Shown piece after piece: positions 23,902 to 31,565 of a stretch of 64,000 nt of DNA (position 1 is the stretch's first letter; each line of letters opens with the position of its first letter). The notes beneath the pieces are model-generated. The model was given only the letters and a program-made list of their open reading frames with translations, had not been told where the DNA came from and searched no databases. Made by a program: the position numbers and the translations under genes. Source of the stretch: Candidatus Saccharimonadota bacterium. Lineage in GTDB: Bacteria > Patescibacteriota > Saccharimonadia > Saccharimonadales > Saccharimonadaceae. The stretch covers positions 124,001 through 188,000 of the forward strand of contig JAFWNF010000003.1 of NCBI GenBank assembly GCA_017510445.1, written 5' to 3'.

Positions 23902-25449
23902 CTAACCTTGATATTCGCTTTTGTCGTCTGCCCATTTATTCGGTTCATAAACCGTTCCAACAAACCATTTTTCGCCCGTGTTTTTATCACGAATAACAAA
24001 CATAAATGGCTTGTCGAAGGTAATCGTTTTTACAACTGGTTGATCATCATCTGGTTCAGCAATAGCCGCATTCTTGTCCATCACAAAAATTGTAATCGCC
24101 GCTGCCTTAATTCCGTCCTCAGAAAAATCAATATTTGCCTTATGAATAGCTTGAGAAACATATAGTTTTTCCTCTTCGGATATTCCAGAAAAATCTGCTT
24201 TTTCAGCATTAAACGCATCCTTAATTCCAAGGCTTTCTAATTTCTTACCAAATTCTTCCAACTCATAATCAAATTTAAACTTTGGAATATCAACAATTAG
24301 ATAATCAAGTTTTTCAATCGGTTTAACTGTTTGAGCGTCTTTCGGTGCACTACTATACTCGTCCACCGCTACAAGTCCGTCAAGGACCGTATCTAAAGCT
24401 TTTTCGTCCAACTCTTCAACATATCCGTCTAAATCTTCTTCTGGCATAATCGCCACAAACTCAAGCCCAGTTCCCGCAACTTCTTCAAGATCCATTGCTA
24501 CAGCTTTAACTCCGTCCGCGTCATAAAGTCTAGCTCCATCTCCAGTAAACGACCTAGTCATCATCGTTACTTCGTCTTTTGTTCCATCCACATAATTAAA
24601 GTCTCTTCCGCTAGTGCTCTCCGCCTCAAATTTCAACTTCCAATCCAGCTGGATCGCTAGAGCATTTACAAGCGCCATCACCGTATCTGGTCCAATTTTG
24701 ACCCCAGAATTTTTAATCAATCCAAATGTTTTTTGATCAATCCAGCTATCAATCTCGCTTGCATCAGCAAAATCGCTAAACAAAATCTCCGCGTCATATT
24801 TTTCCGTCACCGTATCAATATAATTCGGCAAAACAAACTCTTTAAAGTCATTCTTAATAAATACTGAATTCGCTAGCGAAAGTTTATCTTCGACATTCTG
24901 ATATCCTGTGAGTTCAGTATTGCCTAAAACTTCCTCGATTTGCGTTTTCGTTTCTCCCGACGCCCCTTCATCTAAAAGATTTAAAGCATATTTAATCGAA
25001 AGTGGACTATAAATTACATTCTTTTTGTCTTGCTCCACTTTCAGGAAGCTCATATTCAGCTCTTTCCCATAATCTTTAGAAATAGGTTCTGGCTCTGGAG
25101 TTGGATCAATTACTGGCGTTGGCTCAACCTTATTCAAACCTAAAATCTGCTCACCAAAAATCGAAAAAATAATTGCAGATGCGCCAACTAGAATCAAAAG
25201 CACGGCAAGAACAATAATTCCTTTGTGCGATTTTTTCGGCATCTCTGAAGGGCTCTTAAAATCATCTCTCGGAACTGAATTCAAATCCTCCACCGGCACG
25301 CTCGGCGTTGGTGTTTGGTTCGTTTCTACCGACGGGTTTTGCTCTGGCACGCTTGGCGCACCGCCAAAATTCGTTCTGTTTATTCCGTCTATATTATTGA
25401 CGCCACCCGGCATCGCTCCCCCACCTGATCGATTGTCGTTATTATCCAT
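23902..25449 (-). CDS. Surface-anchored serpin (serine protease inhibitor)
   Basis: 515 aa. Residues 1-80 are a Pro/Asn-rich cytoplasmic part, one transmembrane helix follows (GIIVLAVLLILVGASAIIFSIFG), then a Pro-rich linker and a full serpin domain of about 370 residues. Serpin landmarks: NVIYSPLSIKYALNLLDEGASGETKTQIEEVLG, LSLANSVFIKNDF, TVMALVNALAIQLDWKLKF, TVKPIEKLDYLIVDIPKFKFDYE, VSQAIHKANIDFSEDGIKAAAIT (the reactive-loop hinge) and FDKPFMFVIRDKNTGEKWFVGTV. The Ala-rich hinge is typical of inhibitory serpins. The P1 residue is uncertain (K or N near VMDKN) because the loop is longer than usual. Probably protects against host or neighbour proteases. Confidence 0.93.
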   Translation of the reverse strand: MDNNDNRSGGGAMPGGVNNIDGINRTNFGGAPSVPEQNPSVETNQTPTPSVPVEDLNSVPRDDFKSPSEMPKKSHKGIIVLAVLLILVGASAIIFSIFGEQILGLNKVEPTPVIDPTPEPEPISKDYGKELNMSFLKVEQDKKNVIYSPLSIKYALNLLDEGASGETKTQIEEVLGNTELTGYQNVEDKLSLANSVFIKNDFKEFVLPNYIDTVTEKYDAEILFSDFADASEIDSWIDQKTFGLIKNSGVKIGPDTVMALVNALAIQLDWKLKFEAESTSGRDFNYVDGTKDEVTMMTRSFTGDGARLYDADGVKAVAMDLEEVAGTGLEFVAIMPEEDLDGYVEELDEKALDTVLDGLVAVDEYSSAPKDAQTVKPIEKLDYLIVDIPKFKFDYELEEFGKKLESLGIKDAFNAEKADFSGISEEEKLYVSQAIHKANIDFSEDGIKAAAITIFVMDKNAAIAEPDDDQPVVKTITFDKPFMFVIRDKNTGEKWFVGTVYEPNKWADDKSEYQG

Positions 25450-27002: not shown

Positions 27003-27755
27003 ATGGCAACAAACAAAAAATCAACCGCTAAAAAGACTGCTGCGAGAAAAGTTGCAAAGCCTGCGCCAAAAAAATGCGCAACTCGCACCTGCAAAAAGAA
27101 AGAACAGAAAAGCGAAAAACATAAATTTATTATTTTTGCTCTTGCCGTCGTTCTTATAATCCTTTGCGGTAGTCTCGGCGCAATCACTTGGGCTCGCTAC
27201 GCCACCACACGAACGGGCGCCGCAACGACTCAGGTCGCAAAATGGGCAGTAGCAGTCAAACAAGGATCCGCAAACATCAGTAACAACTTCTCAATTCCTT
27301 TGACAGCAAATAATGCTCACACACAAGTCGCAGAAGATCCTGAGACACATAAACAAAAAATTGCCCCAGGCTCCACGGCAACTGGTGACTTTAAAATTGA
27401 TTTTACTGGCACTGAAGTCTCAACCGAATACAGCATAGCCTTTACCCCTCCAGCCAACTTGCCTACAAATGCCGAAATAACTATGTCAGCTAAGATAGGC
27501 AACGATAATCAATCTGTCGCCTGTACTACCTCTAACGGAATCACTACTTGTACCGGATACTTGTCTCTAGATCAAGTTACTAACACACCTGTCGTTGATA
27601 TCACTGTCCTTGTCAACTGGGATGACCACGACAACTATGTAGCTGGTGACGATGACACGGTTTATGACACACCAGACGGCGAAAAAGCAGCAAGCTTAAG
27701 CCTTGATGTTACCATCTCCGCCAAACAATCATTCGGCCACAATTTCGGTAGCTAA
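27003..27755 (+). CDS. TasA/camelysin-like exported protein, probable SipW substrate
   Basis: 250 aa. A long Lys/Thr-rich N-terminal region with CATRTCKKKE precedes one hydrophobic segment (FIIFALAVVLIILCGSLGAITWARYAT). The mature part looks like a TasA/camelysin beta-sandwich: a PGSTATGDFKIDFTGTEVSTEYSIAF segment matches the 'PG-x-x-G-x-f-x-i-x-n' pattern of that family. The ARY motif just after the hydrophobic core is shared with the proteins at 29122 and 29646, and probably marks the cleavage region. First gene of a locus with its own signal peptidase (28464). Probably a surface fibre subunit. Confidence 0.75.
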   Translation: MATNKKSTAKKTAARKVAKPAPKKCATRTCKKKEQKSEKHKFIIFALAVVLIILCGSLGAITWARYATTRTGAATTQVAKWAVAVKQGSANISNNFSIPLTANNAHTQVAEDPETHKQKIAPGSTATGDFKIDFTGTEVSTEYSIAFTPPANLPTNAEITMSAKIGNDNQSVACTTSNGITTCTGYLSLDQVTNTPVVDITVLVNWDDHDNYVAGDDDTVYDTPDGEKAASLSLDVTISAKQSFGHNFGS

Positions 27756-27769
27756 TTTAAGATAAAATC

Positions 27770-28474
27770 ATGGTCACAAAACGAAAGACTAACAGCCAAG
27801 AATCAAAAAACTACATTTTTGTGACTATTATGGTCACACTAGTAGTAGCGGTTATCACGCTACTACTAGTGTTTCTTTTACTCAGAGGATTCGAACCTAA
27901 CACAGAAAAGATTAATATTATCAATCTAACTGCCTGTTTTTCTTGCAAAGATCCCAATATCCCAGAAACAGGCGATGACGAAAGTGATTCGTCGGGAAAA
28001 ACTTCAGAAGGCGATTCGTCAGAAAAAACTTCGGAAGAAGATTTCACTGTTTTTGACAAAAATATTACATGGGGACTCCTCAGCGACTTAAATATCTTTG
28101 AGGATTCTTTATATAATAATCGCCGTCTAATCGCACCACACTCAACCAACATCTACGAATTTATCGTCAGAAATAACACCGGAGGAACAATCAATTATAA
28201 TTTAACTTTTCGAGAATGTAATTTTAGCAAAATTAATATGAAATATCGGCTCACCCACGAAGGGGAATATCTCGCTGGAAGCGAAACTGAATGGGTAACC
28301 TTCGACGAGCTCAACCAATCTCAAAGAATAATCAAGAACAAAAAAGACGATGTTTATTTTCTCGAATGGAAATGGTTTGACAGCGAAAACGACACCGAAA
28401 TTGGTGAAAGTGATTCTTCCGACTATTCTTTACAAATCATATTAAAAGCCACACAGGAAAAAAATGCCAACTAA
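27770..28474 (+). CDS. TasA-like exported protein with Asp/Ser-rich linker
   Basis: 234 aa. N-terminal transmembrane signal (YIFVTIMVTLVVAVITLLLVFLLL), two Cys (ACFSCKD), a low-complexity Ser/Glu/Asp linker, then ITWGLLSDLNIFEDSLYNNRRLIAPHSTNIYEFIVRNNTGGTINYNLTFREC, which resembles the TasA/CalY core. It lacks the ARY motif of its neighbours, so it may stay anchored as a minor subunit or base protein. Its last 11 nt overlap the signal peptidase gene. Confidence 0.68.
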   Translation: MVTKRKTNSQESKNYIFVTIMVTLVVAVITLLLVFLLLRGFEPNTEKINIINLTACFSCKDPNIPETGDDESDSSGKTSEGDSSEKTSEEDFTVFDKNITWGLLSDLNIFEDSLYNNRRLIAPHSTNIYEFIVRNNTGGTINYNLTFRECNFSKINMKYRLTHEGEYLAGSETEWVTFDELNQSQRIIKNKKDDVYFLEWKWFDSENDTEIGESDSSDYSLQIILKATQEKNAN

Positions 28475-29060
28475 AAAAACACCACAAAAAAAAGAACCAA
28501 TAAAAAAATCAGCACAAACAAAGACGCCAAAAAATAAGAAAAATCCAAAGAAAGTTGTTGCTGATAAAACCGAAAAGGTCAAAGATGATAATTCTAAAAA
28601 AGTCGTCCTTAAATTCCTAAACATTCTAACCTATACATTTGGCACTATCATTATTGTCAGCTATGGTCTACTTTTTTCTCTTCGCCTTCTGACCGAAAAC
28701 AACATGAGCCTCTTTGGCTTTCGTCTTTATCGTATTGGCTCTGGTAGCATGTCGCCAACTTTTGAAATTGGTGACGATATTCTCATTCAGGAAACCAAAG
28801 ACTTTGCTGAAAACGACATCATTACCTACACCGTCAACGAGGAAAATTATGTCACCCATCGTGTCGTCTCGATTGACAGCGAAAAAATCATCACTAAAGG
28901 TGACGCAAATAACATTGCTGATGAAGCAATCAAAAAAAATACCGTCATTGGAAAGTATATAAAACGAGCTGATTATTTCAACTTTATCTCAAATTATAAA
29001 TTCCCACTTATCACTTTTCTAGGAATCCTCATTTTTGCATTAATTCTTTTCAAAAAATAG
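28464..29060 (+). CDS. Signal peptidase I, SipW/archaeal (ER) type
   Basis: 198 aa. A Lys-rich cytoplasmic N-terminus of about 50 residues, a transmembrane helix (LTYTFGTIIIVSYGLLFSL), a catalytic ectodomain, and a second helix at the C-terminus (FPLITFLGILIFALILF). The Ser motif is GSGSMSPTFEIGDDILIQE (catalytic Ser in SMSP, residue about 96). The second motif is YVTHRVVSID, where His replaces the Lys of ordinary bacterial Lep; the third is ITKGDANNIADE. These are the traits of SipW, which processes TasA-type fibre proteins in Bacillus. It is embedded among its likely substrates. Confidence 0.92.
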   Translation: MPTKKTPQKKEPIKKSAQTKTPKNKKNPKKVVADKTEKVKDDNSKKVVLKFLNILTYTFGTIIIVSYGLLFSLRLLTENNMSLFGFRLYRIGSGSMSPTFEIGDDILIQETKDFAENDIITYTVNEENYVTHRVVSIDSEKIITKGDANNIADEAIKKNTVIGKYIKRADYFNFISNYKFPLITFLGILIFALILFKK

Positions 29061-29121
29061 CTGTTTTCCATTGCATTTTTTTATCATAAAAACTATAATT
29101 AAATGCATAAGTGGAGTGTGA

Positions 29122-29649
29122 ATGAAGAAAAGGAAAACACGATATTCTGTTTTTGTTTTCGTTGCCCTGTCGGCAATTTGTCTTTTGATTTCTTTTTCAG
29201 ATATTCCTGATTCTTTTGCAAGATACTTAATCAGTTTTTCAGGCGGAATGACCTCAGATGTTGCAAAGCCTATTCTCGTCGTTGATGTTACTTCTCCGTC
29301 TGACACTCTCGACCCAGAAAACAGTATTGATATCGATTTTGATGTCAAAAATTATGAGAACAACTCTATTTCTGAGGTTGGTCTCGAATATTATCTTTCT
29401 TTTGCAAATACAGGTTCAACCCCATTAACTTTTAGCCTAAAAAACAACTCCTCAAACGAAACCATCCCGCTCGACTCAAACAACAAAACCACCGTCGCCG
29501 CATCTGTCCCGATTACTCAAACAGCCCACCCTTATACTCTAACTGTTTCTTGGGATAGTTCTGGCGACAAATCCTCTGCTCTTGCCAACATCACCGACTC
29601 TCTCGTCATCACTGCGACTGTTAAACAATCCTTCAGGAGCAGCCCATGA
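29122..29649 (+). CDS. TasA-like exported protein, probable SipW substrate
   Basis: 175 aa. Signal region MKKRKTRYSVFVFVALSAICLLISFSDIPDSFARYLI with the ARY motif; the mature part is an all-beta domain with SIDIDFDVKNYENNSISEVGLEYYLSF, FTLKNN-like FSLKNNSSNE and HPYTLTVSWD. GTGGAG 7 nt before the ATG. The stop (TGA) overlaps the next start (ATGA). A -10 TATAAT near 29094 suggests a promoter inside the locus. Confidence 0.7.
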   Translation: MKKRKTRYSVFVFVALSAICLLISFSDIPDSFARYLISFSGGMTSDVAKPILVVDVTSPSDTLDPENSIDIDFDVKNYENNSISEVGLEYYLSFANTGSTPLTFSLKNNSSNETIPLDSNNKTTVAASVPITQTAHPYTLTVSWDSSGDKSSALANITDSLVITATVKQSFRSSP

Positions 29650-31565
29650 GAAAAAGAAAAGCTCTAATTGGTCTTCTCATACTCTTTCTTATCGGCTCAA
29701 TCGTCTTCTTTATTTCGCAAGTTTTCATTCAAATTCAAGAAACCTCTGCTCGTTATGCCTTTATTTCGGTCGGCCAAACCCCATTTTCAACCTCACCTTT
29801 CTATTTTGATGTTACTTGTTCCAGCTCAACCTGCAACGACATGACTATTCCATTAGCTGGTTCTATCCCAATTGAAGTTAAAAATTTTTCCGGCAGTTCT
29901 TATAATACTACTCAAACCACTTACACCATTTCAATCAGCGATGGCAGTGGTACTCACGACGCCTATAATTTCTCTGTCGACGGCGTTACTGCTACTGATG
30001 ACACAATGACAAGAACAATCAACGGCGGAAGCGCCACAACAGACTCGTTCGCAATGAGTTTTACAAAAACCAATCCAAGTTCTTCCGACAACGACATTTA
30101 TGTCACCCTTGTTTCCTCTTCTGCATATGTTAGCTCCCCAACAACCTTCAAAGTCACAGTTGACGTCCCTCAGAGCCTTAATTTCACTGTCACTGGCAAC
30201 CCAACAAACTGGACCAACCAAGATGTTACTCTTACTGCTGTTCCAGACGACGCAAACATTCCTCAATACTCTTTCGACGACGGTGCAACTTGGCAATCCA
30301 ACCCATCAAAAACATTTTCAACAAACCAAACCGTTTGCGTAAAAATTAGAAATTCCTCTAATCAAATTAGTCCAAATCAATGCGTATCTATCACCAAAAT
30401 TGACAAAACTCCTCCAACCATTACTGTTCCAACTGATAAAATTTACACCACAATTAACAACAGTCTTGCTCTCTCTACCGAAATTTCCGCTTCCGACTCT
30501 CAATCCGGACTTAATAACAACAGCCTCATTATCAAACGTTCTAATTCTAGCGTTGTTACTAACGCAAACGAATTCACATCCGTTGGCTGGTACAAATTAA
30601 TCGCCTCTGCAACTGACAATGTTGGAAACATCAACACCGTTGAAACCTCTATTATGGTTCGTCCTCCAACGGGCGGTCATTACGTCTTATTTAAACAGCC
30701 TGTCGCTGGTGTAGGGAAAAACACTGGCGGATCGACTTCTGGATTATTCCAAGACAATGCCGATACTGGTGCCGACGCGAATTGTCCATTCTGTAGCCAA
30801 TATTATTACAGCGGTCCAACGGTAAATAACTATTTCTCCTTCGCTAGCTCAACCAATTTTAGAATCGTCAACATCCCTACGAATTACAACATTAAAATTA
30901 TAGGTGGTGCTTCTAGTAGAACCCAAAGATGGTCAGATGATGAGATATTTAATTCCAGCCAATATACTGCTTGGCAAACTTGGTGGAATAACCGCTACAT
31001 ATATTATGATAACAACGACTCTGCTCGCCTTTCCTTCAGCGCGACCGACGCTTCCCATATTGCCAATGCTACCTTTTATGCTGGGTCTATGAGCAGTGGT
31101 AGTGTCGATAACATCGCCGAGGTAATTTCCGCCGAAAGAACAAACACAAGCCATACAGGCGGGAGTTCGGCTTCCTTTACTGGCCACTTCGCCTATCCAA
31201 ATATTAGCGACTATCTAAAAGCAGGAAATAAACAAGAAACCATCTATAGTATTAGCACCGCCTCACTTACCAACATGGCTACATTCCGAAACTCTTCTTG
31301 GCTTGGCACCAGTAAAAGCCTTTGGACTATGAATGGCGATAATGCTGCATTGTCCTACAATTATTTCTGGGCTCTCTCCTATACAAACGCATTAATTCAA
31401 CAAGGTAACCAAATTTCCGGGATCAGATACAGCACCGCTACAGCCTATCAGCCAGTCTTTTATATAACCGAGGAGACCATTCTTTCCGGCACCGGTACAT
31501 CTTCCGATCCGTTTACCGTTAGAGAAAACTGGGATTGGTTCGACAATGCCCAAACCCTCCAATAA
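29646..31565 (+). CDS. Large multi-domain surface protein, probable SipW substrate
   Basis: 639 aa. Signal region ALIGLLILFLIGSIVFFISQVFIQIQETSARYAF with the ARY motif. Residues about 45-185 form a TasA-like beta domain; 190-340 are Ig-like/Big-type repeats (NFTVTGNPTNWTNQDVTLTAVPDDANIPQYSFDDGATWQ; DKTPPTITVPTDKIYTTI); the C-terminal 300 residues (NFRIVNIPTNYNIKIIGGASS, then TAWQTWWNNRY) resemble a surface domain seen in Firmicutes, ending ILSGTGTSSDPFTVRENWDW. CPFC near residue 375 is the only close Cys pair. Probably an adhesive tip or matrix protein of the SipW locus. Confidence 0.75.
   Translation: MRKRKALIGLLILFLIGSIVFFISQVFIQIQETSARYAFISVGQTPFSTSPFYFDVTCSSSTCNDMTIPLAGSIPIEVKNFSGSSYNTTQTTYTISISDGSGTHDAYNFSVDGVTATDDTMTRTINGGSATTDSFAMSFTKTNPSSSDNDIYVTLVSSSAYVSSPTTFKVTVDVPQSLNFTVTGNPTNWTNQDVTLTAVPDDANIPQYSFDDGATWQSNPSKTFSTNQTVCVKIRNSSNQISPNQCVSITKIDKTPPTITVPTDKIYTTINNSLALSTEISASDSQSGLNNNSLIIKRSNSSVVTNANEFTSVGWYKLIASATDNVGNINTVETSIMVRPPTGGHYVLFKQPVAGVGKNTGGSTSGLFQDNADTGADANCPFCSQYYYSGPTVNNYFSFASSTNFRIVNIPTNYNIKIIGGASSRTQRWSDDEIFNSSQYTAWQTWWNNRYIYYDNNDSARLSFSATDASHIANATFYAGSMSSGSVDNIAEVISAERTNTSHTGGSSASFTGHFAYPNISDYLKAGNKQETIYSISTASLTNMATFRNSSWLGTSKSLWTMNGDNAALSYNYFWALSYTNALIQQGNQISGIRYSTATAYQPVFYITEETILSGTGTSSDPFTVRENWDWFDNAQTLQ

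Follow-up and report, generated by a model that had tools for sequence, protein, structure and literature searches.

A SipW-type signal peptidase and its likely dedicated substrates in a Candidatus Saccharimonadota genome

The bacterium analysed here is tiny and probably parasitic, and beyond type IV pili little is known of how such bacteria hold on to their hosts (PMC12206443, PMC11665869). In its genome a signal peptidase gene is embedded among genes for exported proteins, which raises the question of whether this locus matures and assembles a surface structure of its own. The window, a stretch of 64,000 nucleotides to which coordinates without a contig name refer, corresponds to C6:124001-188000 of an 858 kb assembly (857,678 bases, 19 contigs) that is 98% complete. 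At 27003-31565, five head-to-tail open reading frames on the plus strand form one tight run with minus-strand genes on both sides, in the order A-B-SipW-C-D and with successive intergenic gaps of 14, -11, 61 and -4 bases. The best reading is that the locus is likely a new variant of the SipW-substrate systems and would make a surface filament or an adhesin, perhaps comparable with the thread-building genes of Bacillus biofilms. Close to it lies a gene for a membrane-anchored serpin (23902-25449, minus strand; PF00079, E 1.5e-64), unusual for so small a genome.

The signal peptidase and its predicted cleavage site

The third gene (28464-29060, plus strand; 198 aa) encodes a true ER/archaeal-type (Ser-His-Asp) signal peptidase I, as the initial annotation had claimed in calling it His-type. 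The protein exceeds the curated cut-off of model TIGR02228 (74.7 bits against 51.85; E 6.9e-21) and falls below that of the P-type model TIGR02227 (43.4 against 47). Its SGSM, THRVV and TKGDANN motifs align with SGSM, HRV and TKGDNN of SEC11A, so that the SipW histidine, looked for as a check, is present in place of lysine; the SipW-type peptidases of congeners carry the same catalytic motifs. The comparison with SipW itself held for the ER/archaeal-type class but not for the Bacillus SipW equivalog NF046067, which was not reached (60.7 bits against a cut-off of 190). An ordinary LepB is encoded in the same genome (C6:48120-49004), and the SipW-type enzyme is therefore an extra one.

We scanned all 804 open reading frames of the assembly's 19 contigs, 125 of which carry a single N-terminal hydrophobic span. 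An A-R-Y motif past such a span occurs genome-wide only in A, C and D (the frames starting at 27003, 29122 and 29646), which bears out beyond chance the earlier observation of this motif in three proteins past the hydrophobic core. One more ARY lies within a multi-span protein; the remaining tyrosine forms found past a single span, AHY and AAY, are confined to the flanks of a second SipW-type gene. By a cruder count, an aromatic P2' residue alone was found at 8 of 70 putative xxA sites, three of these eight at the locus; aromatic P2' alone is thus not rare, and the distinctive feature is A-R-Y as a whole. The sites read ITWA/RYATT in A, SFA/RY in C and TSA/RY in D, the slash marking the predicted cut, and B has no such motif. 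LepB is hampered by an aromatic P2' residue and by Trp at P2, and TasA (TWA-AFND) is cut by SipW (PMC10269814). Because A reads ITWA/RYATT, the A-R-Y is most likely the cleavage site itself, rather than an element preceding the mature N-terminus; on the same P2' rationale (PMC10269814), cleavage of A is predicted between A64 and R65 (W-A-R-Y, 27189-27200, plus strand).

The peptidase gene thus adjoins three exported proteins with a SipW-type predicted cleavage site, and A, C and D as its likely dedicated substrates are well supported. The ER-type enzyme would serve these neighbours by cutting xxA/RY, whose tyrosine at P2' would be poorly handled by ordinary LepB. Of the four secreted neighbours described initially, B lacks the motif and is probably membrane-anchored, so the proposed SipW-substrate system survives in its peptidase class, catalytic motifs and motif uniqueness, with three likely substrates and not four.

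The second SipW-type locus of this genome (L056:7103-12218, equivalent to G000 C9:63103-68218) has a long peptidase gene (C9:66342-67493, 383 aa) and also encodes a DUF5305 protein and two leader-bearing proteins, one with AAY and one, of 726 aa, with AHY and a weak match to a Hint module. Its layout is repeated in congeners, for example G114 and G082.

Relatedness and predicted folds of the neighbouring proteins

A (27003-27755, plus strand; 250 aa) is an exported protein, predicted to be a beta-sandwich, and the candidate main subunit. The gene for B (27770-28474, plus strand) overlaps the peptidase gene by 11 bases, and the C-terminal domain of B is related to A. C (29122-29649, plus strand; 175 aa) is likewise exported. 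Profile comparison related A to B (97%) and A to C (95.8%), and the A homologs at eight loci share 23-26% identity. Furthermore, A and C carry a V/I-A-x-W-like block at a nearly fixed distance past the site, which appears as VAKP in the window's C. Close homology between C and the N-terminus of D was rejected, as BLASTP gave no significant match. Within the part of B that codes for the membrane span there is a 15-pair hairpin followed by T-rich sequence (27836-27872, plus strand), possibly a chance feature or an attenuator.

The substrates had been called TasA-like. This fails at the level of sequence models, as A, B, C and D have no TasA/CalY match in NCBIfam and Pfam (PF12389, TIGR04088, NF046066), and neither PF12389 nor TIGR04088 has a match in the whole genome. 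A PDB sequence search returned no TasA for A, nor for the substrates of the classic AYFTD-type SipW loci of congeners, and TasA identity by this route was rejected. The likeness to TasA persists solely through a moderate-confidence AlphaFold model of A (8 sequences; pLDDT 66, pTM 0.63), a beta-rich beta-sandwich in which the first 13 residues of the mature protein are unplaced. Among PDB structures, Foldseek matched this model to the TasA fibre 8AUR at rank 9 with a TM-score of 0.45, the best query-normalised value among the 50 matches listed, and to the Pyrobaculum bundling pilus 7UEG at rank 16 (TM 0.33); generic beta-sandwiches are also among the top matches. Both TM-scores are below 0.5, and the fold likeness of A to the two filaments is suggestive only.

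The mature N-terminus of TasA (28-38) is its donor strand (PMC9674648). By analogy, cleavage of A would release an N-terminal strand that could fill in the beta-sandwich of the following subunit, and a surface filament of A (and C) could grow by such strand donation. The related domain of B, which lacks a donor segment and would stay on its uncleaved membrane anchor, would hold the filament base. D keeps the same leader while its body differs from species to species, and would serve as adhesive cargo or a tip. We judge the chances to be about even that the locus is such a self-contained export module, in which SipW-cut A (and C) build a filament on a B base with D as cargo or tip. The peptidase class, the separate LepB, the uniqueness of A-R-Y, the profile matches of A to B and C, the fold matches and 13 unplaced residues of A and the donor-strand precedent of TasA all support this reading, as do the conserved gene order and leader motif described below. 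It is weakened by the TM-scores below 0.5, the generic beta-sandwiches among the top matches of A and the lack of a TasA/CalY sequence match.

D (29646-31565, plus strand; 639 aa) is a large exported protein with a beta-rich N-terminal domain, two Ig-like domains and a C-terminal domain without an assigned fold. Its model is confident in the Ig-like region only (mature residues about 145-303), where it resembles generic adhesion proteins of Ig and cadherin type. A C-type-lectin-like fold was considered for the C-terminal domain because the relative D' of RUG10634 (L072:2810-6967, minus strand) carries two Fib_succ_major domains, together with four Flg_new stretches, past its D-like body, but the model of this domain of D has a pLDDT of only about 25. 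Residues about 146-639 of D were found again in four congeners. In the window and in RUG10634 (G100) this body stands behind ARY/SKY leaders, and in G164, G210 and G197, where SipW was not detected (completeness 76% for G164 and 87% for G210), it stands behind ordinary-looking signal peptides. Conversely, eight further cassette genomes carry KY leaders on different bodies, in which no similarity to D was detected, and Flg_new repeats were present in these bodies in all four genomes scanned. Such exchange of bodies favours a role of the leader in directing proteins to this system.

The same proteins lend themselves to a second interpretation, possible if somewhat unlikely, in which A, C and D are matured by SipW but act individually, as adhesins or coat proteins that are secreted or bound to the surface, and no filament is formed. 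The multi-domain, adhesin-like D with its Ig-like domains fits this, as do its body behind ordinary signal peptides in genomes without detected SipW and the missing sequence link to TasA. However, the order of A, B and C is kept and all three are small, related beta-domain proteins, as expected of the subunits of one assembly, and the modelled fold of A has a moderate similarity to two filament subunits.

Conservation of the cassette and its link to SipW

A profile search with B found the cassette in ten genomes of two genera. RUG10634 has A', B', SipW, C' and D' in the window's order, plus another SipW upstream, and the eight other genomes carry A-B-C-D with no SipW gene separating B from C. 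Six of these eight have SipW-type genes elsewhere; none was detected in G150 and G277 (97 and 100% complete), both of which carry A-B-C-D. The leader motif [AS][RK]Y is kept in 8/8 intact A proteins and 10/10 D proteins, A being cut by a contig edge in L162 and its N-terminus not read in L157. At the C site, RY or KY is found in the window and RUG10634, and KM, with Met at P2', in the eight other genomes. In several genomes of the sister genus (L157-L163), A-B-C-D lies in a constant place by L21-like ribosomal protein, RseP-like and Fpg-like genes.

The strongest evidence to the contrary comes from the cassettes in genomes without a detected SipW. SipW may have been lost there, LepB may be used instead, or the link may be looser than we propose; together with the Met at P2' of C, these cassettes weaken the filament reading. 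They also bear on a further alternative, that SipW is an incidental neighbour which arrived separately, the cassette being LepB-processed or remaining membrane-anchored. This would accommodate both observations, and also the position of SipW outside the cassette in eight of ten genomes and the SipW phylogeny, in which the window protein forms a long, unresolved branch and is not resolved as the sister of the RUG10634 protein. We nevertheless consider it improbable, as SipW-type genes (TIGR02228) occur in 8/10 cassette genomes against 23/147 congeners (with a different mix of genera), the ten TIGR04088-bearing congeners among 60 scanned are all SipW-positive, and SipW holds the same position in the window and RUG10634, overlapping B in the window. 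A phage or plasmid origin of the locus was rejected, since neither D nor a homolog of A gave a match and viral contigs searched for relatives of the peptidase gave none.

Relation to known SipW and filament systems

Returning to the filament module, its most far-reaching form would be a lineage of strand-exchange filaments, dependent on SipW and distinct in sequence, with which ultra-small episymbionts hold the host cell and which have a B base, an A/C shaft and a species-variable D adhesin; we put this forward tentatively and think it unlikely, the fibre and host-attachment role being drawn by analogy. Across the phylum, 98 of 380 genomes have a TIGR02228 match at E 1e-10 or better, 90 of them above the cut-off, and in this genus ER-type peptidases are seen beside their own surface proteins. 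Dedicated enzymes of this kind, in about a quarter of the sampled phylum genomes, would be a second, largely undescribed route of surface assembly, of which a search of open-licence papers found no description. The xxA/[RK]Y site offers a simple sequence handle for finding parts of the system.

The classic AYFTD-type loci of congeners likewise have a SipW with two to four exported neighbours whose P2' residue is aromatic, but profile comparison does not relate these substrates to A, B or C (probability < 1%). Those cassettes sit in or beside housekeeping operons, for example between ribosomal protein genes in L059 and L064 or after rnpA/yidC/jag-like genes in L068 and L069. The bundling pili (AbpA) of Pyrobaculum calidifontis are alike in the fold match of A to 7UEG and in the archaeal type of the peptidase, although the TM-score is low and no sequence link is shown. 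Clostridium perfringens sipW-bsaABCRSD likewise combines a single SipW with several exported proteins, of which the main one, BsaA, polymerises into filaments (PMC7395162); in contrast, two-component genes are absent from the locus described here and the window proteins have no match to the BsaA family TIGR04090. Compared with tapA-sipW-tasA of Bacillus subtilis and sipW-calY of B. cereus, the locus has an extra large protein, D, a B without a cleavable leader, exported proteins outside the TasA/CalY models and a peptidase outside the SipW equivalog model. It shares with them an ER-type peptidase gene beside its own exported substrates, an aromatic P2' at the site (TWA/AF in TasA, ITWA/RY in A), a partial similarity to TasA that the moderate-confidence model of A suggests, and a gene for an anchored or minor protein that overlaps sipW, tapA-sipW in Bacillus (PMC10151520) and B-SipW here.
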